Of a stretch of DNA of 64,000 bases, positions 127 to 16,540 are shown in pieces. The notes under the pieces are model-generated. The model was not told where the DNA came from and did no database searches. It worked only from the letters and a program-made list of their open reading frames with translations. The translations under genes were made by a program, and so were the position numbers. Within the stretch, counting starts at the first letter, position 1; every line of letters starts with the position of its first letter. This stretch comes from Candidatus Sulfotelmatobacter sp. (GTDB taxonomy: Bacteria > Vulcanimicrobiota > Vulcanimicrobiia > Vulcanimicrobiales > Vulcanimicrobiaceae). The stretch spans positions 124,001 through 188,000 of the forward strand of contig DATJRY010000011.1 of assembly GCA_035504415.1 (NCBI GenBank), in the 5' to 3' direction.

Positions 127-849
127 CTACGGGCTGACGACGGGATAGCCGAGCAGTTCGAAGTCGTCGCGGAACAGCTCATTGATCCGGCGGATCGACG
201 CGCTGTTCATTCGTGAGGTGTACTTGTAGTCGCCCGGTCGAAGCGGAAAGGGCGCGACGTCGACGTTGGCGCTCGTCCGTTCGGGAATCGGGATGCCGAG
301 CCGGCGGCAGAGGAGCTCGAAATCAGCCTCGAACTCCTCGACCCGGCCGACGAAGTCGACGGCCTGTGCGCCCGCATAGTGCGTCCAATAGTGAGCCGGG
401 TGGAGCGGAAGACTGCTGTTGCGCCCGATCTCGTAGACTTGGTGTTCCTCGAGGCTCGCCATCCAGGCGTCGAAGTCGTAGCCGGCGGCGATCAGCTGAG
501 CGGCGTTCTCGCTCAGCTGCCGCACGACCAGCGATCGAACCCACGGTGTGCGGAACGGGACGAGCGGCTGCTGGTCGCGATCGCGCAGCAGCTGACGAAA
601 GCCGGAGTATGCACGGTCGTACGGGTTGCGCACGAAGGCCGCGGTGAAGTAGCCAAGGCTCGCCTCGGGCAACGCGCGATAATCCGCGAGGGTAAGATGG
701 CGGTGAACGACCCGCTGGAGCGCCGCATTGAAGTCATAGAACCGCTCGTGCTCGCTCTCGTCGTATGCGACCAGACGCGTCCAAACTGTACTGCTCGCGC
801 ACTTCCACGGTACCAAGAGCACGAACCGGTACCGGTGTGAGACGATCAT
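127..849 (-). CDS. Sulfotransferase (carbohydrate sulfotransferase family)
   Basis: Predicted to transfer sulfate from PAPS to a glycan. The N-terminus (residues 10-21, VLLVPWKCASST) has the 5'-phosphosulfate-binding loop P-x-K-C/A-S-S-T right after the first beta strand. Residues 72-84 (FVRNPYDRAYSGF) give the 3'-phosphate site with Arg74 and Ser82. The length of 240 aa fits Golgi-type sulfotransferase homologues of bacteria. ATG at 847-849 is the natural start because the fold begins at once. It is the last gene of the minus-strand polysaccharide operon, 45 bases after rfbD, so the substrate is probably the exported rhamnose-containing glycan (inference). Confidence 0.85.
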   Translation of the reverse strand: MIVSHRYRFVLLVPWKCASSTVWTRLVAYDESEHERFYDFNAALQRVVHRHLTLADYRALPEASLGYFTAAFVRNPYDRAYSGFRQLLRDRDQQPLVPFRTPWVRSLVVRQLSENAAQLIAAGYDFDAWMASLEEHQVYEIGRNSSLPLHPAHYWTHYAGAQAVDFVGRVEEFEADFELLCRRLGIPIPERTSANVDVAPFPLRPGDYKYTSRMNSASIRRINELFRDDFELLGYPVVSP

Positions 850-894: not shown

Positions 895-1779
895 CTACCC
901 GGCGGCGATAGCGCGCGTCGCGCGAGCAGCGAGGAAATCGTCGAGCGCGTCTTCCCACGCCGGGAGCGGTGCAATTCCGGCTGCGGCGAAGGTCGTGTTC
1001 TCGAGCGGCGAGTACATCGGCCGCTGCGTCGGGTTGCCGAACGAGGCGTACGTGATCGGCTCGAGCCGCGCGTTCGCGAAACCAGCCTTGCGAAATGCGC
1101 ATTGCACGAACTCGAACCACGAGCAGGCGCCGGCGTTGGTGACGTGGTGCGTTCCGTACGCGTTCGCGTCGATGAGGTCGCGCATCGCGCGTGCGACGTG
1201 AGGCGCGTACGAGGGCGAGAAGATCATGTCGGCGACCATGCGCGTCGGCTCACCGCGCTCAGCCTGCTGCAAGACTTTCTCGATCAGCGTGTAGCCCTTG
1301 TTCGAGGTGCCCGCCGCGCCGAAGACGCCGCTCGTTCGCACGATGTAATGCCGCGGCCCGAGCCGGCGCGCCAGCAGCTCGCCGGCGAGCTTCGAGGCGC
1401 CGTAGGCCGTGCGCGGCTTGGCTGCGTCGTCCTCCCGGTATGCGCGCCCGAGCGTTCCGTCGAAGACGTAGTCGGTGCTGACCGTCGCGAACGCGATGCC
1501 CCGCTCCGCGCACGCTCGGGCCGCGGCGTCGACTGCGAGCGCGTTGATCGCGAACGCCCGCTCGGGCTCGCGTTCACAGATGTCGACGTGGTGGAATGCC
1601 GAGCAGTTGACGAGCACGTCGGGGCGCTGCTCGTCCAGAAATCGCGCGATCGCGGTCTGGTCCTCGAATGCAAGCTCGGCGTGCGCGGGCGTCACCAGCT
1701 CGCGCCCCGCAAAGGTCTCGACGAGCGCCGACCCCAGCTGTCCGGACGCGCCGACGATCGCGATTCGGCGTGCGCTCAC
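895..1779 (-). CDS. rfbD: dTDP-4-dehydrorhamnose reductase
   Basis: Last step of dTDP-L-rhamnose synthesis: NAD(P)H reduction of dTDP-4-dehydro-L-rhamnose. A Rossmann motif GASGQLG lies at residues 10-16; further on are the RmlD features STDYVFDG and YGASKLAGE (Tyr/Lys pair). The frame is open further upstream, but I choose GTG 1777-1779, which overlaps the TGA of rfbA as GTGA and puts the nucleotide-binding strand at the usual distance from the start; 294 aa is normal for RmlD. With rfbB and rfbA immediately upstream it completes part of the rhamnose pathway; the rfbC 3,5-epimerase is not in this window. Confidence 0.93.
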   Translation of the reverse strand: MSARRIAIVGASGQLGSALVETFAGRELVTPAHAELAFEDQTAIARFLDEQRPDVLVNCSAFHHVDICEREPERAFAINALAVDAAARACAERGIAFATVSTDYVFDGTLGRAYREDDAAKPRTAYGASKLAGELLARRLGPRHYIVRTSGVFGAAGTSNKGYTLIEKVLQQAERGEPTRMVADMIFSPSYAPHVARAMRDLIDANAYGTHHVTNAGACSWFEFVQCAFRKAGFANARLEPITYASFGNPTQRPMYSPLENTTFAAAGIAPLPAWEDALDDFLAARATRAIAAG

Positions 1780-2513
1780 GTCGGCGCCAGCTTCCGCTGG
1801 CGCTCCTCCGCCACCAGCTGCGCGGCACGGAACAGCGATTCGAATTGGCCGGCGTCGGTCCACCAGCCCTCCAGCTCGTCGAAGTAGCAGTCACCGGCGG
1901 CGATGTAGGCGTTGTTGACGTCGGTGATCTCGAGCTCACCGCGCTTGGACGGCTGCAGGTTGCGCGCGTAATCGAAGACGCGGTTATCGTACATGTAGAT
2001 GCCAGTCACCGCGTGGCGGCTCTTGGGTACCGCGGGCTTCTCCTCGATCCCGACGATGCGGTCGCCGGCGAACTCGGCGACGCCGAAGCGCTCCGGGTCC
2101 TCGACCTCCTTGAGCAGCAGGCGGCATCCGCTGGACTGCCGCACGAAGCGCTGCACGTGCGGCGTGATGTCGTCTTGGATGATGTTGTCGCCTAAGATCA
2201 CGATGATGCTCTCGCCGGCCGCGAAGTGCTCGCAGAGCTTGAGCGCGGCGGCGATTCCGCCCTCGCCTTCCTGGTAGGTGTAGGCGATGTGCGGCAGGCC
2301 GAAATCACGGCCGTTGCCGAGCAGCCGCAGGAAGTCGCCTGCGTTACTGCCGCCGGTGACGATCATGATCTCGCTGAGCCCGGCCTTGCATAAGGTCTCG
2401 AGCGGATAGTAGATCATCGGCTTGTCGTAGATCGGAAGCAGATGCTTGTTGGTCACCTTCGTCAGCGGGCGAAGTCGCGTGCCGAGGCCACCGGCGAGAA
2501 CGATTCCCTTCAC
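1776..2513 (-). CDS. rfbA: Glucose-1-phosphate thymidylyltransferase
   Basis: Makes dTDP-glucose from dTTP and glucose-1-phosphate, first step of dTDP-rhamnose synthesis. The nucleotidyltransferase signature GGLGTRLRPLT sits at residues 8-18, followed by the conserved P-K-P-M-I-Y-Y-P block (YDKPMIYYP). At 245 aa it belongs to the short class lacking the C-terminal allosteric extension of the ~290 aa enterobacterial RmlA. Start is GTG 2511-2513, 9 bases after the rfbB stop; its TGA overlaps the rfbD GTG. The short class may have different feedback control by dTDP-rhamnose (inference). Confidence 0.93.
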   Translation of the reverse strand: MKGIVLAGGLGTRLRPLTKVTNKHLLPIYDKPMIYYPLETLCKAGLSEIMIVTGGSNAGDFLRLLGNGRDFGLPHIAYTYQEGEGGIAAALKLCEHFAAGESIIVILGDNIIQDDITPHVQRFVRQSSGCRLLLKEVEDPERFGVAEFAGDRIVGIEEKPAVPKSRHAVTGIYMYDNRVFDYARNLQPSKRGELEITDVNNAYIAAGDCYFDELEGWWTDAGQFESLFRAAQLVAEERQRKLAPT

Positions 2514-2522
2514 GTCAATCTC

Positions 2523-3536
2523 CTAGCGGTGCGCGTACTGACGCTCGTAGTACGCCCGAAATTCACCCGACTTGATCGGTCGCCACCACGCCTCGTTGTC
2601 GCGGTACCACGCGACCGTCTGGGCCAAACCTTCTTCGAACGGCACGCGCGCGCTCCAGCCGAGCCGACGCGCCTTGGCGCTGTCGAGCGCGTAGCGGCGA
2701 TCGTGCCCGGCACGGTCGACGACATGACGCACGCTGGTTTCGAACGAGCGACCCGTCAGCTCGAGCAGCCGCTGCGTGATGGCGAGGTTCGTGCGGCTGT
2801 TTCCGCCGCCCAAATTGTAAGCGTGGCCGGGGCGCCCGTGCTCGAGCACGTGCGCGATGCCGCGCGCGTGGTCGTCGACGTGGAGCCAATCGCGCACCTG
2901 CAGGCCGTCGCCGTACACCGGGACCGTCTGATCGTCGATCAGGTTGGTGACGAACAGTGGGATCAGCTTCTCGGGGTACTGATGCGGCCCGTAGGTGTTC
3001 GAGCCACGCGTGATCAGCACGGGCAGGTCGTAGGTGGTGTGATACGCCAGCACTTGCAGGTCGCCGCCGGCTTTCGACGCGGCGTACGGGCTGCGCGGCC
3101 GGATCGGATCGTCCTCGGTCGAGGCGCCGCTGGGCACGTGCCCGTAGACTTCGTCCGTCGAGACCTGCAGGAAACGCTGAATCCGGTGACGCCTGACGGC
3201 CTCGAGCAGCACGTGCGTCCCCATCACGTCGGTGCGGATGAACGCCTCCGGATCGAGGATCGAGCGGTCGACGTGCGTCTCGGCGGCGAAGTTGACGATC
3301 GCGTCGACGCCCTCACCGATCGCTTCGTCGACTGCATGCGGATCTGCGATGTCACCGCGGACGAACCGGTACCGCGGATCATCGGCGACCACCGCGACAT
3401 TGGCGGGATTCGCGGCATACGTCATCGCATCCAGGACCGTAATCGCGACGTCCGAGCGCTCCTGTAGGCACCCTCGCACGAACGCGGAACCGATGAACCC
3501 CAAGCCTCCGGTCACCAGCCATCTACGGTACGTCAC
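2523..3536 (-). CDS. rfbB: dTDP-glucose 4,6-dehydratase
   Basis: Converts dTDP-glucose to dTDP-4-keto-6-deoxyglucose. Extended SDR with GGLGFIG at residues 10-16, the catalytic STDEVYG block and YAASK (Tyr/Lys), plus the RGSNTYGPHQYPEK segment typical of RmlB. 337 aa is the family length. Start GTG 3534-3536. It lies between the coiled-coil methyltransferase (58 bases upstream) and rfbA (9 bases downstream), so it is in the same transcription unit. The product feeds rfbD and could also feed other 6-deoxysugars. Confidence 0.95.
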   Translation of the reverse strand: MTYRRWLVTGGLGFIGSAFVRGCLQERSDVAITVLDAMTYAANPANVAVVADDPRYRFVRGDIADPHAVDEAIGEGVDAIVNFAAETHVDRSILDPEAFIRTDVMGTHVLLEAVRRHRIQRFLQVSTDEVYGHVPSGASTEDDPIRPRSPYAASKAGGDLQVLAYHTTYDLPVLITRGSNTYGPHQYPEKLIPLFVTNLIDDQTVPVYGDGLQVRDWLHVDDHARGIAHVLEHGRPGHAYNLGGGNSRTNLAITQRLLELTGRSFETSVRHVVDRAGHDRRYALDSAKARRLGWSARVPFEEGLAQTVAWYRDNEAWWRPIKSGEFRAYYERQYAHR

Positions 3537-3594: not shown

Positions 3595-5226
3595 TCAGCG
3601 GCGAATCTTCCCGACGATCTGGCGCAGCGGCGCGGTCACCTTCCAGGAGTGGGACGCGAGGACTTCGCGCAAGAACACGCCGTCGCGGCGCGCCTGGTCG
3701 AGCTCCTCGTTCAGCGCGGCGATCTGTGCCCGCGCCGCCACGCCCTCGGCCTGTGCTTGCGCGAGCCCTTCGCCCAGCGCGATCACCTCGCCCTCGCGGG
3801 CGGTAAGCCGACTCTGCGCCTGCGCGAGCGACTCACGCAACGCCGCCAACTCGTCCTCGCGTACGGCGAGGCGGCCGCGCGACTCCGCGAGCGTCGCGCG
3901 GAGCGCCGCCGATTCGTCTTCACGCGCGGCCAGGCCGGCCTGGGCGGCCACGAACGCGTCGCGGAGTGCCGTCGACTCGTCTTCGCGAGCACGCAACCCC
4001 GCCTGCGCCGCCACGAGCGCATCGCTGAGCGCCGCCGACTCCTCTTCACGCGCACGCAAACCCGCCTGCGCGGCGGCCAGCGCGTCGCGCATCCGCGTCG
4101 ATTCGTCTTCATGCGCCGCGATGTCGACCTGCGCTGCCATGAGCGCGGCACGAAGCGCGACGGCTTCCTCTTCGGCTAAGCCGCGGTCGCTCTCGGCCGT
4201 AGCGAGCACCGCGCGGACCTCATCCACCTCCGCTTCGCGTCCGGCAAGCGTGCCTTGCGTTTCCGCGAGCTCCGCCTTCACACCCTCGGCGACCGCTTCG
4301 AGCTCCGCCCAGGCTGCGGCCCGCGCCGCGATCTCCCCCTCGAGTGCCGCACAGCGCGCGGCGAGGTCCCCCGGCGCCGCGTCCTGATCGGCCGGGAGCG
4401 CCGGCAATTCGGCCGCGTCCGACGAGAGCGGCAACGCATTCGCGGTAGCCCCGTTGAGCCGCTCGTGGCGCAACGTATTGAGTTCCGTCCAGATAGCGTC
4501 GAGCAAGTCGTCGGCGGGGTCCAGATACGCCGAGCTGACGTCGACGCTCAGCCGTTCGTCCGAGCAGATGGCGACGAAATAGAGCGGGTTGGTCAGCGTC
4601 GGCAGAACGTTCGCGATGCCGTCCCGAGCGCCGCTGTGCCAGGTCGGCGACTCGCTGACGGCACCTCCCAGCGGATGCACGAGCGAGAGCGCAGCCAGCC
4701 GCTGTCCGTAGAACGCCACGTGACGGAAGCGCCGCACGAGCAAGTCACGGAACTCGTCGAAGTAGAGCTCTTTCTCGTGATACGGATTTGAATATTGCGG
4801 GAGGTCCGAGTAGGTCAGCTTATTGGGCGAGGAGATGATCAGCACGCCGCCGGGGACGAGCACGCGCCGCAGCTCGTCGAGCATGCGCTCGTGCTCGGTG
4901 AGGTGCTCGATCGTCTCAAACGACACGGCGACGTCGACGCTGTCCTCGCCGAGCGGAATCTGCGTACACGAGCCGTAGAGAAACCGCACGTTCGCGGCGT
5001 AGTAGCTGCGCCGCGCATGGTCGACCGAGCGCGGATCGACGTCGACGCCGGTTACCTCGGATGCTACCCGGGCGAGGAGCGCGGAGCCGTATCCCTCGCC
5101 CGAAGCGATGTCCAACACCCGCCGGCCCGCGCAAAAGCGCGCGGCGAGCGCGTAGCGGTGGAGATGCTCGTAGTGAATCTGTCCGCCGATGGACGGAACG
5201 TATCGTTCGCCGGTAAACTCCATCAT
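3595..5226 (-). CDS. SAM methyltransferase with long 21-residue-repeat coiled coil
   Basis: Residues 1-~250 are a class I methyltransferase: MEFTGERYVPS opening, motif I VLDIASGEGYGS, and a 'VSFETIEHL' motif. From about residue 338 to 505 come eight near-perfect 21-residue (three-heptad) repeats of the type RDALAAAQAGLRAREEESAAL, predicted as an extended coiled coil. The last 38 residues contain SHSWKVTAPLR and a basic, amphipathic tail, a C-terminus common in membrane-associated glycan enzymes. ATG 5224-5226 has GAGG 8 bases upstream and lies 10 bases after wzm. A methyltransferase plus coiled coil next to wzm/wzt resembles the chain-terminating ruler WbdD, but no kinase domain is evident. 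It might instead simply methylate a sugar. Confidence 0.85.
   Translation of the reverse strand: MMEFTGERYVPSIGGQIHYEHLHRYALAARFCAGRRVLDIASGEGYGSALLARVASEVTGVDVDPRSVDHARRSYYAANVRFLYGSCTQIPLGEDSVDVAVSFETIEHLTEHERMLDELRRVLVPGGVLIISSPNKLTYSDLPQYSNPYHEKELYFDEFRDLLVRRFRHVAFYGQRLAALSLVHPLGGAVSESPTWHSGARDGIANVLPTLTNPLYFVAICSDERLSVDVSSAYLDPADDLLDAIWTELNTLRHERLNGATANALPLSSDAAELPALPADQDAAPGDLAARCAALEGEIAARAAAWAELEAVAEGVKAELAETQGTLAGREAEVDEVRAVLATAESDRGLAEEEAVALRAALMAAQVDIAAHEDESTRMRDALAAAQAGLRAREEESAALSDALVAAQAGLRAREDESTALRDAFVAAQAGLAAREDESAALRATLAESRGRLAVREDELAALRESLAQAQSRLTAREGEVIALGEGLAQAQAEGVAARAQIAALNEELDQARRDGVFLREVLASHSWKVTAPLRQIVGKIRR
3712..4215 (-). repeat. Eight tandem 63-base (21-residue) coding repeats
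   Basis: Eight consecutive in-frame units inside the methyltransferase gene encode [RS]-x-A-L-x-A-A-Q-x-x-L-x-A-R-E-x-E-S-x-A-L-like segments. The central units are the most alike; outer ones are degenerate. The 21-residue period equals three heptads, so gain or loss of a unit would lengthen or shorten the coiled coil without breaking its register. Such arrays are prone to slippage or recombination, so copy number may vary between strains (inference). Confidence 0.85.
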
Positions 5227-5236
5227 GCCGCGGCCC

Positions 5237-6052
5237 TCAGAGCAGATCCATGAAGTCACGCCGCAGCGCGCGGAATAACGCGTGCCCGACGCATGCACAG
5301 ACGATTGCGACGGCCAGGAAGCCGCCCACCAGCGAAAAATCGATGGGACCGTGGCCCAGGGTGACCTCGCGCAGCGCTCCGATCGCCATGCCGACCGGAT
5401 TCATCGTCAGGTACGGGCGGATCCCGGCCGGTACGAGCGCGGCCGGGTAGAAGACCGGGCACGTCATCCAAATCACGAAGCTGAACACGCCCCACAGATA
5501 GAGCAGGTCACGGAAGAACACGTAGAAGGCAGCAAGCGCCAGACCGAATCCGGCGCACAGGAGCAGCACCCCCGCGAAGACGATCGGCACCAGCACCGCG
5601 CGCAGCGGATCGTGGGTGAGGACCGCCGCCAGCACGAGGACGACGGGAAAGGTCGTCGTCAGCTGCTGGAAGGCGTTGGCACTGAGTGCCGCGATGGGAA
5701 ATATCTCCGGGTCCAGCGCGATCTTGTTCAGCAGTCCGCCGTTGGCGACCACGGACGAGAGCGCTTCCGTGGTCGCCTGCGAGAAGAACACGACGACGGT
5801 GACGCCGACGAAAGCGGAAAACACATACCGCAGGATCGACCCGCCGTAGTATGACGCGAACGCGGTCCCGAAGATCGTCGTGTAGAGCGCCGTCATCAGG
5901 ATTGGGTTCGCGAACGACCACAGGACGCCGAGCGACGTGCCGCGGTAGCGCGTCTTGAGCAAGCGCAGCGCCGACATTCTCACTAGCTCGAGATGCCGGC
6001 GCCAGCCGGCCGGCACGGCCGGCATCGAGCCGCGCGCCAGTGCACCGATCAC
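5237..6052 (-). CDS. wzm: ABC-2 type polysaccharide export permease
   Basis: Membrane subunit of an ABC exporter that moves undecaprenyl-linked polysaccharide across the inner membrane. After an amphipathic N-terminus (RHLELVRMSALRLLKTRYR, the TagG/Wzm interface helix) there are about six hydrophobic segments, including the conserved RDLLYLWGVFSFVIWMTCPV region near the C-terminal half. 271 aa fits Wzm/TagG. GTG 6050-6052 overlaps the wzt stop as GTGA, so translation is coupled to the ATPase, as expected for obligate partners. Confidence 0.92.
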   Translation of the reverse strand: MIGALARGSMPAVPAGWRRHLELVRMSALRLLKTRYRGTSLGVLWSFANPILMTALYTTIFGTAFASYYGGSILRYVFSAFVGVTVVVFFSQATTEALSSVVANGGLLNKIALDPEIFPIAALSANAFQQLTTTFPVVLVLAAVLTHDPLRAVLVPIVFAGVLLLCAGFGLALAAFYVFFRDLLYLWGVFSFVIWMTCPVFYPAALVPAGIRPYLTMNPVGMAIGALREVTLGHGPIDFSLVGGFLAVAIVCACVGHALFRALRRDFMDLL

Positions 6053-7071
6053 AGCAGCGCTTCTCCTTCGACGATTTCCATGATCACCGCGTCGTCGACG
6101 ATGAGGACGTCCTGCGGGCCGTAGTGGCTCCGCAAGATCCAGTTGATCGTGATCGCGTGCCGCCGCCCGTCTTGGATCAGGTACAGCGTCTCGTCACCCG
6201 AACGCCCCTTGACGACGATCTGGCCGCGCGGATCGTGGTGCGCGAGGTCGACGAGGTCCTGACCGCGCCGGAAGCTCGCCATGGTGGGAATCGTCGCCAG
6301 GTACGCGTCGGCGGCCTCCGAAGCCGCACCGTCGAACCGCACCTTGCCGTGGTCCATCCAGATGACGCGGTCGCACGTGCGCGCGACGGTCGCCATGTCG
6401 TGGCTGACCAGCAGGATCGTGCTGTGCTCGTCCCAGTAGTGCTCGATGCGGGCCGCGCACTTGCGACGAAACCGCTCGTCTCCGACGGAGAGCACTTCGT
6501 CGACGAGCAGGATCTCGGGTCGAAACTCGGTCGCGATCGCGAAGCTCAGACGCGCAGCCATCCCGGAGGAGAGCGTCTTGGTCGGCTCGTCCCGGTGCTC
6601 GCGCAACTCCGCGAAGTCGAGGATGTCCTCGATCCGCTCACGCACGTCCCGCTCGGAGTGCCCGAGCAGGACGGCGTAATAGACGATGTTGTCGACCAGC
6701 GAGAGCTCCGCGTCGAAACCGACGCCGAGCTCGATCAGGGGTGCGACGCTCGCGGAAACGGCGACGGAGCCGCGGGTGGGCTCGAGGATGCCGGCGATCA
6801 GCTTGAGCAGCGTGGACTTACCGCTGCCGTTGGGCCCGATCAGGCCCACCTTCTCACCGCGCTTGATCTGCAGCGTGACGCGTTCCAGCACCGTCCGGCG
6901 GCGGACGCGGCGAGAGCGCCCGGAAACCAGCCGCAGGAAGCTCCGCTTGAGGTCGTAGTGGAGCTCCTCTTGCGTGCGCCGGATCAGGGTGACCCCGTCC
7001 AGGGCGATCGCCGGGGCGGCTGAGGTCTGCGGAGACACGCGCTCGGCTTGTTTGCTAAGGGTCGAGTGCAT
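6049..7071 (-). CDS. wzt: ABC polysaccharide exporter ATPase with atypical C-terminus
   Basis: ATPase partner of Wzm. Walker A GPNGSGKST at residues 79-87, signature LSSGM at 167-171, Walker B ILLVDE at 187-192, switch His224. ATG 7069-7071 is 19 bases after the upstream glycosyltransferase; the longer open frame upstream only shadows that gene. The tail after about residue 260 is only ~80 residues: it contains a LYLIQDGRRHAI...GPQDVLIVDD...GEALL pattern, not the ~150-residue Ig-like carbohydrate-binding domain of E. coli O9a Wzt. It may be another kind of reader domain or just a structural cap. Confidence 0.92.
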   Translation of the reverse strand: MHSTLSKQAERVSPQTSAAPAIALDGVTLIRRTQEELHYDLKRSFLRLVSGRSRRVRRRTVLERVTLQIKRGEKVGLIGPNGSGKSTLLKLIAGILEPTRGSVAVSASVAPLIELGVGFDAELSLVDNIVYYAVLLGHSERDVRERIEDILDFAELREHRDEPTKTLSSGMAARLSFAIATEFRPEILLVDEVLSVGDERFRRKCAARIEHYWDEHSTILLVSHDMATVARTCDRVIWMDHGKVRFDGAASEAADAYLATIPTMASFRRGQDLVDLAHHDPRGQIVVKGRSGDETLYLIQDGRRHAITINWILRSHYGPQDVLIVDDAVIMEIVEGEALL

Positions 7072-7090: not shown

Positions 7091-9235
7091 TTACGGCCCG
7101 AGCGCGTAATCCTCGGTGAGTCGCGTGAGGTTCCGGTTGTAGTGCGGATCGATGACCTCGGCCGTGCGCCAACGCTCGTGCATGACCAGCTGCTCTCGCA
7201 GGAAGCGCGCCATCTTCTCCGGCGTGTCTTCATGCCCGCGGCTCTTAGACTCGTAGTGGAAGAGTTCGACGTGCGGGAGGTAGACGTTGAAGTAGCCTGC
7301 CGCTCGAACGCGCAAGCAAAAGTCGACATCGTTGAAAGCGATCGCCAGCTCCTCGTCGAAGCCACCGACCTCCTCGAACACCGCGCGGCGTATCATCAAA
7401 CAAGCGGCGGTGACCGCCGAGAAGTTGTTGACCGTCTGCAGCGTCGCGAAATACCCGGGCGCGTCGCCCGGGAAGTACTTGTGCGAGTGACCGGCCACGC
7501 CGCCGAGCCCGATGATGACCCCGCCGTGCTGCACGGTCCCGTCCTCGTACAGCAGCTTCGCGCCAACGGCACCGATCGAGGGACGCTGTGCCTGCTCGAC
7601 CATCGCCTCGAGCCAGTCGCGCGTGATCACCTCGGTGTCGTTGTTCAAGAACAGCAGATACGTGCCCGAGGCCTGCGTCGCGGCGTAGTTGTTGATCTCG
7701 GAGAAATTGAACGGAACGTCGTGACGGACGAGCTTGACGCGCTCCGGCTCACGTTCGAGCCACGCGCCGAACACGCGCAAGGACTCTTCGTCCGTCGATC
7801 CGTTGTCGAGCAGAACGACTTCGATGTCGGGATACGTGGAGCGCTCGAAGATCGAGCGCAGGCAGCGGTCGACGTCGTCGCCGTGGTCGCGGGTGGGGAT
7901 GATGATACTGACCCGGTCCTTCGTCCGCAGCTCGTAGCGGACGGTATAGGTGCCGGGGACCGCGTCGCTGTGCACGATCCGGCCCGGCTCGCCACGACGC
8001 TCGAGCGCCTCGAGGATCGCAGCTTGCGCGGCGTCGTAGGCGTAATCTTTCTGCGAGCGCGAGGACGCCACCGAGCCACTGTGAACGCGCCAGTGGTAGA
8101 GCAGGCGCGGGATGTGCTCGACGCGACGCGCGAGCTCCGTTGCACGCAGCAGCAGATCGTAGTCCTGGCTCCCTTCGAAGCCCGTCCGGAATCCGCCGAT
8201 CTGCTCGACGATCGAGCGCCGATAGATGCCCAAATGCGAAACGTAGTTACGCGAGAGCAGCGAATCGGGCGACCAATCGGGCTTGAAGTACGGGTCGCTG
8301 CGCCGCCCGGCATCGTCGATCTTGTCCTCGTCGGAGTAGATCACGTCGACGTCCGGAAAGCGCGTGACGACGAGCGCGTTCTCGAACAGCGCGTCGGGTG
8401 AAAGGAGGTCGTCGTGATCGAGTAGGGCGACGAAGTCGCCGGTCGCGAGCTCCAACGCGCTGTTGCTCGCGGCCGCGATGTGCCCGTTCTGCTGGCGATA
8501 GACGATCTTCACGCGTGGATCGGCCGCGTACTCGTCGAGAACTGCACGGACGTGCGGCTGTCGCGAAGCGTCGTCAGCGATGCACAACTCCCAGTGCGGG
8601 TAGACCTGCTGCTGCACGGAGTCGATGGCCGCGCGCAGATACTTCTCCGGCGTCTCGTAGACCGGCATGATGACACTGAAGACCGGCCGCACCGGGAGCG
8701 GCGGGAGGAACTCCCGCATCCGCTCGATGTCGGACGGCCGAACGCGGTGCTCGTTCAGCCACCGTTCATAGTCGGCGTTCCGCTCGAACACCCCCTCGTC
8801 GTCGTCGACGTCGGGCAGCCAGTACGGCAGCGGGCCCGTGCCGCCGCGCATCCTCTGCTTGAGCGCGAACCAGGCGTTACGGGCCTTCCAGAATTTGCTC
8901 GTCTGTATCGACGCCAGCAGCATGCGGGCGCGCCGGAGCATCGGCTGCGTGCGCGCGATGTGCCCTTGCATGCGGGCCAGCTCGGCACGGATCCCTTGGC
9001 GTTCGCGCTCGGCAGCCCACGCGGAGATCAGCGCTTCGGTATGCCGAACGGACAACTCGCGCAGACGCTGCTCCGCGTCTTCTCGCGCGCGCTCCGCACG
9101 GGCGGCTTCGGCGCGCACGTCGTCGATTTGCGACCCGAGCTGTTCGCTCAGCAGCCGCCAGTGCTTGGTTCGTTCCCCGGCCGCGGGCGCGGCGGGGGAA
9201 CCCTCCTCTGCGCTCGACGTTTCATCAATATCCAT
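7091..9235 (-). CDS. Tandem GT2 glycosyltransferase
   Basis: 714 aa cytosolic glycosyltransferase with two family-2 domains. An N-terminal coiled segment (residues ~15-130) ends in a basic linker (FWKARNAWFALKQRMRGG). Domain 1 (~185-400) begins FSVIMPVYETPEKY and has the DHDD acceptor/metal motif; domain 2 (~440-680) begins VSIIIPTRDHGDDVDRC and has NNDTEV. The gene at 29099-32011 shares the linker and both domains. Start ATG 9233-9235; the open frame extends upstream but there overlaps the divergent gene. It is the first gene of the Wzm/Wzt operon and probably builds the exported chain (inference). Confidence 0.9.
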   Translation of the reverse strand: MDIDETSSAEEGSPAAPAAGERTKHWRLLSEQLGSQIDDVRAEAARAERAREDAEQRLRELSVRHTEALISAWAAERERQGIRAELARMQGHIARTQPMLRRARMLLASIQTSKFWKARNAWFALKQRMRGGTGPLPYWLPDVDDDEGVFERNADYERWLNEHRVRPSDIERMREFLPPLPVRPVFSVIMPVYETPEKYLRAAIDSVQQQVYPHWELCIADDASRQPHVRAVLDEYAADPRVKIVYRQQNGHIAAASNSALELATGDFVALLDHDDLLSPDALFENALVVTRFPDVDVIYSDEDKIDDAGRRSDPYFKPDWSPDSLLSRNYVSHLGIYRRSIVEQIGGFRTGFEGSQDYDLLLRATELARRVEHIPRLLYHWRVHSGSVASSRSQKDYAYDAAQAAILEALERRGEPGRIVHSDAVPGTYTVRYELRTKDRVSIIIPTRDHGDDVDRCLRSIFERSTYPDIEVVLLDNGSTDEESLRVFGAWLEREPERVKLVRHDVPFNFSEINNYAATQASGTYLLFLNNDTEVITRDWLEAMVEQAQRPSIGAVGAKLLYEDGTVQHGGVIIGLGGVAGHSHKYFPGDAPGYFATLQTVNNFSAVTAACLMIRRAVFEEVGGFDEELAIAFNDVDFCLRVRAAGYFNVYLPHVELFHYESKSRGHEDTPEKMARFLREQLVMHERWRTAEVIDPHYNRNLTRLTEDYALGP

Positions 9236-9269
9236 GAACACCGCACCGGGAGGCCAGCCATTGCGTAGG

Positions 9270-10601
9270 GTGAAACAAGCGCACCGGCCTTCTCGCAACC
9301 GCAGAGGAATTCCCGTCACTATCGCAGAGCTCGATCCACATGTCCTCGTCCTGCCGACGGAGGGGGCATTCGACCGCTTCAGCTGGATCGACGGCGTGTG
9401 CGACCTGATGCCGCACATCGGATTCGCGCGCGTGCCGCAGGGTGCGCCGCTCGTGGTGTCCGGATGGGCGGTCGACCCGTCCTCCGCCGATCCGCCCCAG
9501 GCGGTGGCGATCGTCGTCGACCGTGCGCGCGTGCACCACGCCGAAGCCGGGCTCGACCGTACCGACGTGCGCGCTTTGCTCGGACCTGAGACCGCGCGAG
9601 ACATCGGTTTCCGCGCGACGGTGCGCATCGACGACCTCCTGCCGGGCAACCACGAGCTGCGCGCGTACGTCCTGGGCGCCGACGGCACGTGGTACGAAGC
9701 CGCGTACACGCCGTTCTCCGTGTACGCGAGCGTGCAGCCCGCGCTGGACGTCGCGAGCGGACGCTCTCGCATCGTGGTGGACTCCGTCAGCGACGTGTCG
9801 CTCGACGGCAAGGGGCGCGGGCCGTCCGACGGGATCGTCGCGCGCGGTCACCTCGCACTTCTCGCGGGCTGGGCACTGAACCTCGAGACGAAGACAGCGC
9901 CCGTCGGCGTGTGCGCCATGGACGGGGACGGGAACGCGTGGAGCGCGTCGTGTGACCTCGCGCGCCCCGACGTGCGCGCCTCCGCCGGCGCCGCCGCCGA
10001 ATACCTCGGCTTCGAGCTCCTCGTCCTCACCGAGCAGATGCGCCTTGGGTCGCAAGTTCTCAGCCTGCACGCGTTCGACGCGAACGGACGCCGCTACGGA
10101 AGCGCGCTGGAGGTCGAGCTCGACGTCAGCGCGCCGATGGAGGCATTTCCGGGCTTCGCCCCACTGGTGGACGGCACCGTCACCGCGAGCGTCGTGGCCG
10201 AGCGTGGCTCGCGCGTCGAGGAGCTGGACGGCACCCGCGCGCTGACGCGCGCCGTCGGGGACTTCGTCCCGATCGAAGGCTGGGCGTTCGGCAACCCGAC
10301 GGTCGGCTGGCGCGGCGAGCAATTGTACCTCGAGCTGCAGCCCGAGGACCTCGTCATGCCGCCGATGCGCTACCAGCCGCGGTACGGCTACACCGTCAAG
10401 CGGCCGCGAAAAGAGTTGCGCACGCCGCCGCACGCGAACGGCTGGTTCGCGTACCGACTCGACACCGCCAATCTCGTGCCCGGCTCGTACGCGATGCGCT
10501 TGGCCCTCGTTGCTCGAGACCGCTGCTCCTACCGCACGATTCCGCTCGGAACGCTTCGGATGACGCAGCCGTCTTCGTCCGGCACGCGTGCGGGCGCCTG
10601 A
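9270..10601 (+). CDS. Protein built only of Ig-like GWA/RPD modules
   Basis: I do not recognise a named family. No signal peptide or membrane helix is visible, so it is probably cytoplasmic. Three beta-rich modules follow each other: residues ~40-150 (VVSGWAVD ... RTDVRALL ... GNHELRAYVL), ~165-285 (LLAGWALN ... RPDVRAS ... GFEL) and ~290-430 (PIEGWAFG ... GWFAYRLD ... GSYAMRLALV). The same module occurs in five other genes of this window, attached to enzymes. The layout resembles bacterial Ig-like (Big_7-type) domains. Start is uncertain: GTG 9270-9272 is used; GTG 9396 or ATG 9408 are possible. Divergent from the glycosyltransferase with only 34 bases between. Confidence 0.7.
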   Translation: MKQAHRPSRNRRGIPVTIAELDPHVLVLPTEGAFDRFSWIDGVCDLMPHIGFARVPQGAPLVVSGWAVDPSSADPPQAVAIVVDRARVHHAEAGLDRTDVRALLGPETARDIGFRATVRIDDLLPGNHELRAYVLGADGTWYEAAYTPFSVYASVQPALDVASGRSRIVVDSVSDVSLDGKGRGPSDGIVARGHLALLAGWALNLETKTAPVGVCAMDGDGNAWSASCDLARPDVRASAGAAAEYLGFELLVLTEQMRLGSQVLSLHAFDANGRRYGSALEVELDVSAPMEAFPGFAPLVDGTVTASVVAERGSRVEELDGTRALTRAVGDFVPIEGWAFGNPTVGWRGEQLYLELQPEDLVMPPMRYQPRYGYTVKRPRKELRTPPHANGWFAYRLDTANLVPGSYAMRLALVARDRCSYRTIPLGTLRMTQPSSSGTRAGA

Positions 10602-10691: not shown

Positions 10692-11852
10692 ATGGTAGAA
10701 CCGCATGCGCAACCCGCGATCGTCCACGTGGACGTGCCTTTCGGCGGGCTGATCAAGTCGCCGTCGTCGCTGATACGCGGCTGGATTTCGCTGGAGGGCG
10801 ATCGACCGATCGAGCGGCTCTGGTTGGCGAACCCCGCCGGGCGGGTCGTCCCGCTCGCGTTCGTCGACCGGCCGGACGTGCGGCAAGCGTTGCCGGACCG
10901 CACCTCGACCGGCTTCTCGGCCTGGATCGACGCCCGGACGATGGCGAACGGCCCGTGGTCCGTCGGCTTTCGGCGCGCGGGCGAAGACGCGGCGGCGCCG
11001 GTGCCGTTGCGCGTCGACACGACGATCACCAGCGAGTTCAGCGACGCGAAAGCGCGTAAGCTCGCACGCATTCGTCCGCTCTTACGCTGTCCGAAGTGCG
11101 GCGGAAAGCTGACCGACGACGAGCAGGCCATCGAGTGCGCGAACGGACATCGCTTCGGCGTCGGCACGAACGCGTACGACTTCCTGGACGACGCGACGCG
11201 CGAACGCGTCGGCGCGGTTCCGACCTCGAATGTCTCCGCGCACGGATACGACGAGGTGCTGCGCAAGCTGATCTCCGAAACGAGCGGACCGATCCTCGAC
11301 GCCGGCGCCGGCTTGCGTCCCGATTATCGCGAGGAAGTCGTCAACCTCGAGATCGTCGCCTACCCGACCACCGACGTCGTCGCCGCCGTCGAGCTGCTGC
11401 CGTTCGCCGACGACTCGTTCGATCTCGTCATCAGCGTCGCGGTGCTCGAGCACGTTCGCGACCCGTTCGCGGCGGCTCGCGAGCTCGAACGGGTCGTGCG
11501 CCCGGGCGGTCGCATCTTCGCCGCCGTCCCGTTCCTGCAGCCGTATCACGGCTATCCCGACCACTATTACAACATGACCTCGGGTGGTTTGCGGAACTTA
11601 TTCCGCAACTGCGAGGTCGAGTCGCTGTTCGTGCCGCGCTCGGGCAGCCCGATCTTCGTGCTCACCTGGCTCTTGCAGTCGTGGCGGAACGCGCTGCCGC
11701 CGGAAACACTGCAGACCTTCGACACCTTGCGTGTCTCCGACTTGGCCGTCGATCCGCTCACGCTCATCGACGAGCCGTTCGTCACCCAGCTGCCCGAGCA
11801 CGCGAACGTCGAGCTCGCGGCGCTCAACGTGCTGATCGGCAAGAAGCGCTAG
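10692..11852 (+). CDS. Ig-like module + zinc ribbon + SAM methyltransferase
   Basis: Three parts: residues ~10-110 carry one GW module (LIRGWISLEG ... VDRPDVRQAL ... GFSAWID); residues 130-155 are a Trm112-like zinc ribbon with Cys133, Cys136, Cys149 and His153; residues ~175-386 are a class I methyltransferase (GPILDAGAG motif I, DSFDLVISVAVLEHV motif IV, VVRPGGRIFAAVPF). A target on a glycan or lipid-linked sugar is likely from context, but not shown. ATG 10692 follows an 90-base non-coding gap after the pure module protein; the next gene is convergent, 3 bases away. Confidence 0.85.
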   Translation: MVEPHAQPAIVHVDVPFGGLIKSPSSLIRGWISLEGDRPIERLWLANPAGRVVPLAFVDRPDVRQALPDRTSTGFSAWIDARTMANGPWSVGFRRAGEDAAAPVPLRVDTTITSEFSDAKARKLARIRPLLRCPKCGGKLTDDEQAIECANGHRFGVGTNAYDFLDDATRERVGAVPTSNVSAHGYDEVLRKLISETSGPILDAGAGLRPDYREEVVNLEIVAYPTTDVVAAVELLPFADDSFDLVISVAVLEHVRDPFAAARELERVVRPGGRIFAAVPFLQPYHGYPDHYYNMTSGGLRNLFRNCEVESLFVPRSGSPIFVLTWLLQSWRNALPPETLQTFDTLRVSDLAVDPLTLIDEPFVTQLPEHANVELAALNVLIGKKR

Positions 11853-11855
11853 GCG

Positions 11856-13253
11856 CTACTCGGTCACGGTGAAGCGCACCGGTGAACCCTCCGTGAAGTA
11901 GCCTTTGTCGTCGTGCGCGACGACGAGGATGGCGACGGAGTGGACGCCGGGGCTGAGCGTCTTGGCCGGAATCGTACCGATGTAGCCGACGTAGCGAGCC
12001 TTGGGGGCGTTCAGCACGCGGGCGACGTCGGGCCGATCGACACCGTAGAGCGCGGCGATGCGACGCGACCCGTCGATCAGGAGGTACACGCCCGCCGAGG
12101 GCTGACCGTCATCGAACGCCCAACCGGTGAACGAGAGCGGCTGCGACGCGGAGAAACCGAGGTTGACCGGCTGGTGCTTGCCGATGACGACGACGCTCGA
12201 CGAGCCTTGCACCGCGGAGTCGAGCGAGAACGGGGCCTTCCCCCAGTGCTCGTGCAGGCCGGCGAGCGACGGCGGCCCGTGCAGCGCGACCGCCGCCGCT
12301 TGCGGACCGGCCGCCGGCGGGGCAGCCGCGGGTGCTGCGGGCACCGACCCTCGGAGCTGCGGATACACGACGGCACCGCACAGCAGCACGACGAAGACGG
12401 CGGCGATCGCGGTCTCGATCGGGTACTTGCGCAGGAACGTGGCTAAGGTCATGGGTCCCTTCTTGGGCGGAGTCGCGCGCACGGCGGCCGGCGGAGCCGC
12501 CGGGGCCGCCGGCACGTCGAGCGGAAGCCGGCGGCGATAGTCGCCGCGCGAGAGCCATTTCTCGAGCAGCGCGTAAAGGACGATGAAGAGGTACCGGCTC
12601 CCCATCTCCTTGATCTTGAACTTCGAAACGCCGCCTTTGCGGTTATACCAACTGGTCGGAACGACCGTCCAGGAGTAGCCGCGCACGATCGCCTTGAGCG
12701 GCAGCTCGACGGTGATGTTGAAATGATGCGCGAGGATCGGCCGCACGCCGTCGATGACCTCGCGCCGATAGCACTTGAACGCATTGGTGACGTCGTTGTA
12801 CGAGATCCCCATCAGCGCGGCGACGAACAGATTGGCGATCCGGTTGAGCGCGAGCTTGAGCCAAGGATATTCGACGACGTTCGCGCCGCGCATGAAGCGC
12901 GACCCGAACGCGCAGTCGAAGCCCGCCTCGATCGCCCGCCAGTATGCGACGACGTCGCCCGGATCGTCCGAAGCGTCGGCCATCACGATGCAGACGGCCT
13001 CGCCGGCGAACGCGTCCAACCCGCTGTGGATCGCGTTTCCGAAGCCGTTGGCGCGCGGGTTGTCGATGCAACGCACCTGCGGCCAGCGCTTGCCCACCCG
13101 CGAGACGACCGCAGCCGTCGCATCGGTGGAGTGATCGTTGACGACGATGATCTCGAACGGAATCCGCTCCGCGTCGAGTCGTTCAGCCAGCTCCGTCAGG
13201 GTCGGCTCGACGGTCGCCTCCTCGTTGCGGGCGGGGATGACGACGGAGAGCAT
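11856..13253 (-). CDS. GT2 glycosyltransferase fused to membrane-anchored Ig-like module
   Basis: Residues 1-~240 are a DPM1/GtrB-like GT2 domain (LSVVIPARNEEATV, VNDHSTD, MADASDDP). A Pro/Ala linker (245-265) leads to a second unit starting at Met268: basic stretch, one membrane helix (~281-298), a second Pro/Ala linker and an Ig-like module (SFTGWAFD ... VDRPDVARVL ... GVHSVAILV). The second unit is homologous over its whole length to the stand-alone gene 21154-21726. An internal ATG at 12450-12452 with an AAGGGA-like site just before it could make the second unit alone. Start ATG 13251-13253 shares one base with the upstream TGA. Confidence 0.88.
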   Translation of the reverse strand: MLSVVIPARNEEATVEPTLTELAERLDAERIPFEIIVVNDHSTDATAAVVSRVGKRWPQVRCIDNPRANGFGNAIHSGLDAFAGEAVCIVMADASDDPGDVVAYWRAIEAGFDCAFGSRFMRGANVVEYPWLKLALNRIANLFVAALMGISYNDVTNAFKCYRREVIDGVRPILAHHFNITVELPLKAIVRGYSWTVVPTSWYNRKGGVSKFKIKEMGSRYLFIVLYALLEKWLSRGDYRRRLPLDVPAAPAAPPAAVRATPPKKGPMTLATFLRKYPIETAIAAVFVVLLCGAVVYPQLRGSVPAAPAAAPPAAGPQAAAVALHGPPSLAGLHEHWGKAPFSLDSAVQGSSSVVVIGKHQPVNLGFSASQPLSFTGWAFDDGQPSAGVYLLIDGSRRIAALYGVDRPDVARVLNAPKARYVGYIGTIPAKTLSPGVHSVAILVVAHDDKGYFTEGSPVRFTVTE

Positions 13254-14347
13254 CAGACGCCGGTGCGCTCCTTCTCGGCGTCGCTCAGCCAGCGGTCGAC
13301 GTTCTTGTCGTACATCTCCCTGACGAGCGAGCGCAGGTCGTACTCCTGCCGCCAGTCGGGATAGTGCGCCCGGAACTTCGCCATGTCGCTGATGTACCAG
13401 ATGTGGTCGCCGATCCGATTCGTTTCGGTGTACGCCCAGTCGAGCTTGCGGCCGGAAATCTCCTCGCACAGCCCGATCGCCTCGAGCATCGAGCAGTTGC
13501 TGAAGCGCGTGCCGCCCGCGTTATAGACCTCGCCGCAGCGCGGGCTGCGAAAGACGTGATCGAAGGCAGACACGAGATCGTGCGAATGGATGTTGTCGCG
13601 AACCTGCTTACCTTTGTAGCCGAAAACCTGATACGGAGCGCCGACGACGGTACACTTGAGCAGATACGCCAAGAAGCCGTGAAGCTTCGTCCCCGAGTGG
13701 TTCGGGCCGGTCAGACAGCCGCCGCGGAAGACGGCGGTCGGCATCGAGAAGTAGCGCCCATATTCTTGAACCAGCACGTCGGCGGCGACTTTCGAGGCGC
13801 CGAACACGGAATGCGTCGATTGATCGATGCGCAGGTTTTCGTCGATGCCTTCCCAGTACGGGTGATTGCGCGCGATCTCCCAACGCGTCTCGAGCTCTTC
13901 GAGCGGTAGCTCGTTCGGCGCGTCGCCGTAGACCTTGTTGGTCGAGGTGAAGATGAAGGCGGCCTTCGGCGCGTGCTTGCGGGTCGCTTCGAGCATGGTC
14001 AGCGTCCCGTTCGCGTTGACCGTGAAGTCGGTCGGTGGATCGCCGGCGGCCCAGTCGTGCGAGGGCTGCGCGGCGGTATGGATCACCAGCGCGATCCGTG
14101 CACCGTGCCGCCCGAAGATCTCGTCGATCGCGGCGGCGTCGCGGATGTCGGCGGCGACGTGCGTGTACTGCTTGGGAAAGCGCGACTCGAGCGAGAGCCG
14201 GTTCCATTCGGTGGACGCGTCCGGACCGAAGAACCGCTGGCGGAAGTTGTTGTCGATGCCGACGATCTCGTAGCCGCGCTCCGCGAAGTACGCGACGGCT
14301 TCCGAGCCGATGAGACCGGCAGAGCCGGTGACGATGACGACGGACAT
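13253..14347 (-). CDS. CDP-paratose 2-epimerase-like SDR enzyme
   Basis: Extended SDR of 364 aa. The start [15 protein letters not shown], the [12 protein letters not shown] segment, [12 protein letters not shown] and [10 protein letters not shown] are hallmarks of the RfbE (CDP-tyvelose/CDP-paratose 2-epimerase) family, which inverts C2 of a dideoxysugar. [11 protein letters not shown] gives a Ser/Lys site where most SDRs have Tyr-x-x-x-Lys (F in the Tyr place), so catalysis may differ. ATG 14345-14347; ends in a one-base overlap with the GT2-module gene. No CDP-hexose pathway genes are in the window, so the true substrate is open. Confidence 0.85.
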
Positions 14348-15513: not shown

Positions 15514-15616
15514 AAGGGTTTCGCGTTCAGCGCGACAATGAGAGGGCCTGCCATTACAGCCGCGTGCGCACTCATCACTCGTCAGCGCGCGTTCGATGCC
15601 GCGAGGAGCATACTAC

Positions 15617-16540
15617 GTGAACCCGAGATTCCGCCTGCTGATGATTGGTGCGATGTACGAGAACGGCGGAAACACGACACATCGTTTTCTCGACGGGCAC
15701 CCGCAGATGTTCGTGTACCCGTTCGAATCCCAGATCGGCACGGCGCTGGTGCACGACTACCTGAACTCGATGTTCCCGCTGAAGTACCGCTGGCCGGCGT
15801 TCTCGCTGCACGCCACCCCGCACCAGGACTATAAAGCGATCATCGACGAGGAAGGCAAGGTCCGCTCGCGCACGCCGAACGTGAGCAAGTTCCGGCACGA
15901 GCCGTTCGACATGAACGACGACGAGCGCTGCGCGATCTACGAGCGGATCATCGGTGAGATCGGCCGCTCGCGGCCGAACAACGTCGAAGCGTTCTTCCGC
16001 GCGACCTTCGAGGCGTGGAAGGACTATCGCCGGACCGGTCGCGAGCAGGTCTACGTCGGCTACAATCCGATCATCGGCGTCGACGCGGACAAGATCTTGA
16101 CCGACATGCCGGACGCGCACTTCCTGCACATCGTGCGTAACCCGTGGTCGGCCTACGCGGATACGAAGAAGCGTCCCGTTCCGCTCTCGCTCGAGCATTA
16201 CATGCTCGGGTGGACGCTGAACCAATACTACGCGCTGCTGTTCCAAAAGAAGTTCCCGGACCGCATGCACGTGATCCGCATCGAAGACGTCCTGGCGGAT
16301 CCCAAGAAGACGCTCGGGGCGCTGTGCGAGAAGCTCGGGCTCGAGGCTGCGGACTCGCTTCTGCACCCATCGTGGAACGGCAAAGTGCTCGAGGAAGTGT
16401 ATCCGTGGGGGACGATACGCAAGGCGACACCCGACGCGAATCGCGCCACGGCCGCCGAACTCGGCAAGGCCGAGGTCGAGGAGATCCGGCTGCGCACCGC
16501 CCAGTACCTCGACCACTTCGGATACACGGACTTCCTCTAG
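15617..16540 (+). CDS. Sulfotransferase
   Basis: PAPS-dependent sulfotransferase fold. Near the N-terminus IGAMYENGGNTTH is the 5'-phosphosulfate loop in a divergent form; HIVRNPWSAYADTKKR mid-protein is the 3'-phosphate site (Arg, Ser). 307 aa. I prefer GTG 15617-15619 because a strong GAGGAG lies at 15603-15608, 8 bases upstream; ATG 15596 would add seven residues and has no such site. First gene of the plus-strand operon running to 21128. The acceptor is probably a sugar of the same locus (inference). Confidence 0.85.
   Translation: MNPRFRLLMIGAMYENGGNTTHRFLDGHPQMFVYPFESQIGTALVHDYLNSMFPLKYRWPAFSLHATPHQDYKAIIDEEGKVRSRTPNVSKFRHEPFDMNDDERCAIYERIIGEIGRSRPNNVEAFFRATFEAWKDYRRTGREQVYVGYNPIIGVDADKILTDMPDAHFLHIVRNPWSAYADTKKRPVPLSLEHYMLGWTLNQYYALLFQKKFPDRMHVIRIEDVLADPKKTLGALCEKLGLEAADSLLHPSWNGKVLEEVYPWGTIRKATPDANRATAAELGKAEVEEIRLRTAQYLDHFGYTDFL

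Follow-up and report, generated by a model that had tools for sequence, protein, structure and literature searches.

Coiled-coil chain terminators in known systems

E. coli O8 has a methyl-only WbdD that works without a kinase (PMC3482155), whereas the O9a form is a kinase-methyltransferase, with its kinase domain placed between methyltransferase and coil. Methyl caps have also been described in K. pneumoniae O5 (PMC11231755), in Aquifex (PMC9445017) and in Geobacillus, where the enzyme is WsaE (PMC2943079). The extended coiled coil has been described as the hallmark of this way of ending chains (PMC11231755). In WbdD, insertions into the coil and truncations of it alter the chain length, and the length of the coil was published as about 20 nm (review PMC5082667). 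The length estimate applied below gives 19.6 nm for WbdD residues 460-591, a stretch that contains four prolines, in agreement with the published value. The link between coil length and chain length has so far been examined in few systems, all of them enterobacterial.

Gene order and the likely polymer

The window, meaning the whole stretch of 64,000 nucleotides that was analysed, belongs to a genome of 4.17 Mb in 21 contigs from the candidate phylum Eremiobacterota. On its reverse strand lies a tight series of genes in the order wzt, wzm, a methyltransferase-coiled-coil gene, rmlB, rmlA, rmlD and a sulfotransferase gene (Table 1). The domains and the coil of the protein, the gene order, the family relationships and the exchange of the Wzt_C domain described below are all established by the sequence and the models. 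Wzt, Wzm and the methyltransferase-coil gene are separated by an overlap or by a few bases: wzt and wzm overlap at their junction (Wzt stop at 6049, Wzm start at 6052), Wzm ends at 5237, and the methyltransferase-coil gene starts with ATG at 5223 (or 5226) and has its stop codon at 3595-3597, with the rmlB start following at 3536. The best NCBIfam match of Wzt is Wzt/RfbE at 185 bits, which is under the curated cut-off of that model. The neighbouring two-module GT2 protein is a candidate for the polymerase. In total, two sulfotransferases are found in the window, and a second methyltransferase is located at 10692-11852.

The cluster carries rmlBAD, and rmlC candidates were found in the host genome away from it, so that the dTDP-rhamnose pathway is likely complete. 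LpxC was also found in the host genome, from which it is likely that lipid A is made, and a cultured member of the Eremiobacterota has an outer membrane covered by LPS (PMC9758169). Taken together, these observations make it likely that the polymer of the cluster is O-antigen-like and contains rhamnose.

Table 1. Features of the wzm-wzt locus, with coordinates counted from the first letter of the window
Feature	Coordinates	Strand	Evidence
Cluster sulfotransferase	127..849	-	PF03567, E 8e-14
rmlD-like reductase	895..1776	-	PF04321, E 1.8e-76
rmlA-like nucleotidyltransferase	1776..2513	-	PF00483, E 1.7e-55
rmlB-like dTDP-glucose 4,6-dehydratase	2523..3536	-	Pfam GDP_Man_Dehyd/Epimerase
Protein of 542 aa with methyltransferase and coiled coil, proposed to terminate chains by a methyl cap	3598..5223	-	Pfam, AlphaFold, relatives
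Short basic tail at the C terminus, SHSWKVTAPLRQIVGKIRR, which may act as an anchor to a membrane or complex	3598..3654	-	S-x-S-W-[RK]-x-T motif in relatives and WbdD
Stalk of coiled coil, roughly residues 287-523; length about 35 nm if helical throughout	3655..4365	-	AlphaFold helix, heptad signal
Eight 21-residue units of three heptads each, residues 326-493	3745..4248	-	Lag-21 self-identity, TRF period 63
SAM methyltransferase domain of class I (residues 15-235) with the motif VLDIASGEGYG	4519..5181	-	Pfam Methyltransf_11, relatives, AlphaFold
Wzm, ABC-2 permease	5237..6052	-	PF01061, E 5e-10
Wzt, ATPase subunit, 340 aa	6049..7071	-	PF00005, E 1e-21
Wzt C-terminal domain, about 75 residues, in place of Wzt_C	6052..6276	-	Conserved in relatives; AlphaFold
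Two-module GT2 glycosyltransferase, N-terminal helical segment followed by SKFWKARN	7091..9241	-	PF00535, E 5e-48, two stretches

Architecture of the methyltransferase-coiled-coil protein

A sequence-only reading of the locus had placed a methyltransferase, eight 21-residue coiled-coil repeats (168 residues) and a basic tail directly after wzm/wzt, and Pfam, AlphaFold and the gene calls agree with it in coordinates and content. The Methyltransf_11 match covers residues 37-130 (E 2.3e-21), and the methyltransferase core is modelled by AlphaFold with pLDDT mostly about 90 or more. The stalk is predicted as two helices, 287-409 and 415-523, with one small break between them, and its heptad a/d positions carry a hydrophobic excess of z = 8 over shuffles. 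The eight units were likewise recovered: self-identity at lag 21 is 0.47 as compared with 0.14 in 500 composition-preserving shuffles (largest shuffle 0.22; z = 14), harmonics appear at 42 and 63, and a 63-nt period is visible in the DNA by TRF. The count needs only refinement, in that the repeats make up just a part of the coil, which has about 235 residues, and the units have diverged. Adjacent units share 51-81% nucleotide identity and their identical residues often come from different codons, so that the array is not fresh.

The absence of a kinase, also noted from the sequence, holds in the Pfam search of the protein; the interval between methyltransferase and coil offers only about 50 residues, mostly of low confidence in AlphaFold. 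With no kinase in that place a phosphate cap is rejected, and a methyl cap is indicated, which is the type known from Geobacillus and Aquifex as well as from K. pneumoniae O5 and E. coli O8. The sequence-only reading had gone further and proposed a ruler system with a different cap and a different reader, evolved apart or strongly changed. The terminator and ruler part of that proposal is, as a probable reading, well supported by the architecture, the gene order and the relatives, and the different reader is retained as well; the different cap is an overstatement, since E. coli O8 is established to have a kinase-free, methyl-only WbdD (PMC3482155) and other systems are known to use methyl caps, so that the main ground for a separate system falls away. 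Evolution apart, as it was worded, is rejected because the methyltransferase family adjoins wzm-wzt in many phyla.

The likeness to WbdD consists of the N-terminal methyltransferase, the long coiled coil and the position of the gene beside wzm-wzt, and the O8 form is kinase-free too. Furthermore, WbdD of E. coli HS (O9-type) has SRSWRMT at residue 592, right after its coil, and the SHSWKVT of the window protein aligns with it, both sequences following the pattern S-x-S-W-[RK]-x-T. In AlphaFold the basic tail forms a separate helix (527-541) of low confidence, and the helical amphipathicity (hydrophobic moment) of these 19 residues shows no excess over shuffles. The two proteins differ in their methyltransferases, which share no more than a remote similarity (26% over 94 aa), in the stalk, with about 35 nm of 21-residue repeats versus about 20 nm, and at the C terminus, where a polymerase recruitment region of WbdD length is absent: 19 residues follow the coil, as opposed to 117 from the SRSW motif of WbdD to its end. 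A shorter, unrecognised recruitment site is possible.

Two further systems are comparable by their descriptions. ORF6 of K. pneumoniae O7 also has a methyltransferase followed by a coil, and rhamnose genes are part of its wzm-wzt cluster too; it differs in that its coil is preceded by a kinase and a carbohydrate-binding domain and followed by glycosyltransferases, whereas nothing but the short tail follows the coil of the window protein. In Geobacillus stearothermophilus, whose S-layer rhamnan is capped by 2-O-methylation, wzm, wzt and the methyltransferase gene wsaE are consecutive and rml genes are present, and the difference lies in the two glycosyltransferase domains of WsaE.

Relatives of the methyltransferase in other phyla and within the genus

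A scan of species genomes yielded 80 outside loci, which are the best-scoring ones, some of them on short contigs, so that the following counts are no census. Among the 68 of these with a good methyltransferase score, 34 have a Wzt, directly upstream in 31. Many of the relatives in other phyla are large fused forms like the known methyltransferase-coil-glycosyltransferase terminators. All 33 large multidomain versions contain coil-like stretches totalling at least 70 residues by a composition-based estimate, and 12 of the 33 bear a motif of the S-x-S-W-[RK]-x-T type; 14 of the 68 consist of the methyltransferase only. Because many phyla have related methyltransferases after wzm-wzt, often fused to coils and additional domains, the window protein, on these comparisons, fits a free-standing version of the known coiled-coil terminator strategy.

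Within the order, the methyltransferase-coil protein was found above threshold in 7 of 103 genomes, 6 of them in the genus of the host, and in G091, G093, G094 and G099 the terminator gene is likewise held in the wzm-wzt cluster. Several genomes of the relatives are incomplete; in G098 the head and the coil lie on two contig ends, with the whole coil on one contig, and the two parts are taken to form a single gene. Identity between the window protein and four same-genus relatives is 54-68% in the methyltransferase, 40-65% in the tail and 30-35% in the coil, and the S-x-S-W-[RK]-x-T tail is kept in all five same-genus relatives. The coil period is 21 residues in the window, 14/28 in G093 and 11 in G099, with no clear period in G094 and G091. 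Coil lengths in the six genus members are 209, 235, 241, 263, 342 and 365 residues, or about 31-54 nm if straight, and a heptad signal over shuffles is present in all six (z 3.6-9). As far as sequence comparison can tell, the coil is evolving by other rules than the methyltransferase and the tail. With similar heads and tails but coils that range between about 31 and 54 nm, these six proteins form a natural test series for coil length versus chain length.

Probable chain termination and its alternatives

By analogy with the known systems, the protein is probably a coiled-coil chain terminator and ruler of ABC transporter-dependent polysaccharide assembly, similar to WbdD of O8 and O9a; capping, membrane anchoring, ruler action and reading of the cap are all carried over from those systems. 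In such a mechanism a parallel coiled coil would carry the methyltransferase head at its far end, while the basic SWKVT tail would hold the terminator close to the membrane and the growing chain. A polyprenol-linked, probably rhamnose-containing chain would be O-methylated at its non-reducing end only once it is long enough to meet the head, and the methylation would halt chain extension. The Wzt tail domain, in place of the Wzt_C jelly roll, would then recognise the finished chain and lead it to export. If true, the capping-and-ruler strategy reaches into a deep, mostly uncultured phylum. Counted against this reading were the remote similarity of the methyltransferase to that of WbdD, the missing recruitment region, the short tail, a Wzt without the cap-reading domain of the studied systems, the presence of the Wzt tail domain in genomes without the terminator, and the second methyltransferase in the window.

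The coil could serve as a scaffold instead of a ruler, oligomerising the methyltransferase and docking it onto glycosyltransferases, in which case methylation would be internal or would terminate the chain without length measuring. The neighbouring GT2 protein likewise combines a helical segment at its N terminus with an aromatic-basic motif, methylation by Geobacillus WsaE in vitro is independent of chain length (PMC2943079), and both the wide variation of coil length among relatives, as expected of a free spacer, and the family members without a long coil point the same way. However, tested rulers are built in this way, with the methyltransferase far out on a long coil and the gene next to wzm-wzt (PMC11231755), and heptads are retained in all six genus members despite the turnover of the sequence. 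A scaffold is considered unlikely.

It is improbable that the cap is the work of the second methyltransferase, of a sulfotransferase of the cluster or of some other enzyme, with the methyltransferase-coil protein modifying something else. In favour of this, G097 and G100, two of the genomes that have the Wzt tail domain but lack the methyltransferase-coil protein, carry the second methyltransferase between wzt and wzm, and sulfotransferases occur both in the window and, as a sulfotransferase-like segment seen by eye after the methyltransferase, in G071. Against it, the second methyltransferase is present in only 3 of the 11 genus genomes as against 6 with the methyltransferase-coil protein, and in G093, G094 and G099, where the latter lies in the wzm-wzt cluster, a search for close relatives of that second enzyme found none.

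The C-terminal domain of Wzt

Kinase-free, methyl-only terminators and the coiled-coil terminator strategy are already known, and the less ordinary part of the locus is its Wzt. Like Wzt of O9a and Aquifex, this ATPase subunit continues past its nucleotide-binding domain into an additional C-terminal one. This C-terminal domain had been called short and different, and it is so: the tail is an alpha/beta domain of about 75 residues, predicted to be EccB-repeat-like (Z 5-7) and weakly PlyCB-like (about 3.5), in contrast to the carbohydrate-binding Wzt_C domain (PF14524) of those proteins. PF14524 was searched in 28 Wzts, of which five are Eremiobacterota proteins and 23 belong to family loci of other phyla. 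It was found in 21, all from other phyla; the other two outside Wzts (L023, L057) have only about 35 residues past the H-loop and no tail. No match was obtained in the Wzt of the window, in that of G091 or in three more with the window-type tail, whose tails were scanned alone. The window Wzt has 115 residues after the H-loop versus 181-260 in the Wzts with Wzt_C. On this sequence evidence, the usual Wzt_C is replaced by another domain in the window Wzt.

The tail domain has no match in Pfam and no sequence match in the PDB, and it was not found in the 80 outside loci. In the phylum, at a threshold of E 0.001, it occurs in Wzts across the genus and in some neighbours in the family, in 15 of 149 genomes, one of them by way of a different protein. 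Its AlphaFold model has a mean pLDDT of 85, and a plain reader-less Wzt of the galactan type is rejected in view of this confidently predicted domain and its conservation in relatives. The best Foldseek matches are EccB proteins of mycobacterial ESX systems, with E about 0.1 or worse. VIA-align gives Z up to 6.7 against EccB1 (rmsd 2.2 over 69 residues) and Z 3.5-3.6 against PlyCB (rmsd about 4), values that a common arrangement can also give. The EccB1 repeats were previously compared to PlyCB (PMC4769845), which is a polyrhamnose binder (PMC10604209, PMC13059722). The likeness in the models is thus a suggestive but weak pointer to a tail that may read the rhamnose chain. Independent support for a reader role comes from G071, where one protein combines the methyltransferase of the terminator, at its start, with the tail domain of Wzt, at its end. 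A non-reading role of the domain is also possible.

A more far-reaching proposal is that the export checkpoint was rebuilt in the Eremiobacterota, an EccB/PlyCB-like domain having replaced the jelly roll to recognise the methyl-capped rhamnose chain, together with a terminator whose ruler length shifts between species by rapid tandem turnover of coil units. We hold this to be tentative and, as a whole, rather doubtful; if true, an unrelated domain can perform the cap-reading step. A strict pairing of tail and terminator was not found within the 11 genomes of the genus, where the window-type Wzt tail occurs with the terminator in five and without it in five, and where G091 has the terminator and a different Wzt tail, which resembles a domain elsewhere in the window.

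In the related genome G071, a single protein joins a methyltransferase of the window type, then a sulfotransferase-like segment, which was recognised by eye and for which Pfam gives no match, and the Wzt tail domain. The window cluster holds two sulfotransferase-family genes, which suggest that its polymer may additionally be sulfated. The Wzt tail of the window type was found twice in one cluster of another relative, G094 (L012:15982-19701), where two Wzt genes both carry it against one Wzm, and twice on one short contig of G096.

In the relative G092, a methyltransferase that differs from the window enzyme, and whose coil-like region is very long, lies some 8 kb away from a Wzt carrying the window-type tail and is perhaps an independent terminator. 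A domain with the pattern GWA.D...RPDV...GF...L.PG.H, without a Pfam match, is shared by an uncharacterised protein and a GT2 enzyme, which has it at its C-terminus; the Wzt tail of the same-genus relative G091 shows a weaker resemblance to it. The domain is a possible glycan-binding module.

Coordinates of the loci, in the window and in relatives, that carry these features
Feature	Location	Strand
Sulfotransferase-family gene	window 127-849	-
Sulfotransferase-family gene	window 15596-16537	+
GWA.D domain	window 9150-10601	+
GWA.D domain	window 11859-13256	-
GWA.D domain	L125:4283-5668	
G092 coil-bearing methyltransferase	L117:17806-19680	+
G071 fusion	L016:14391-16073	-
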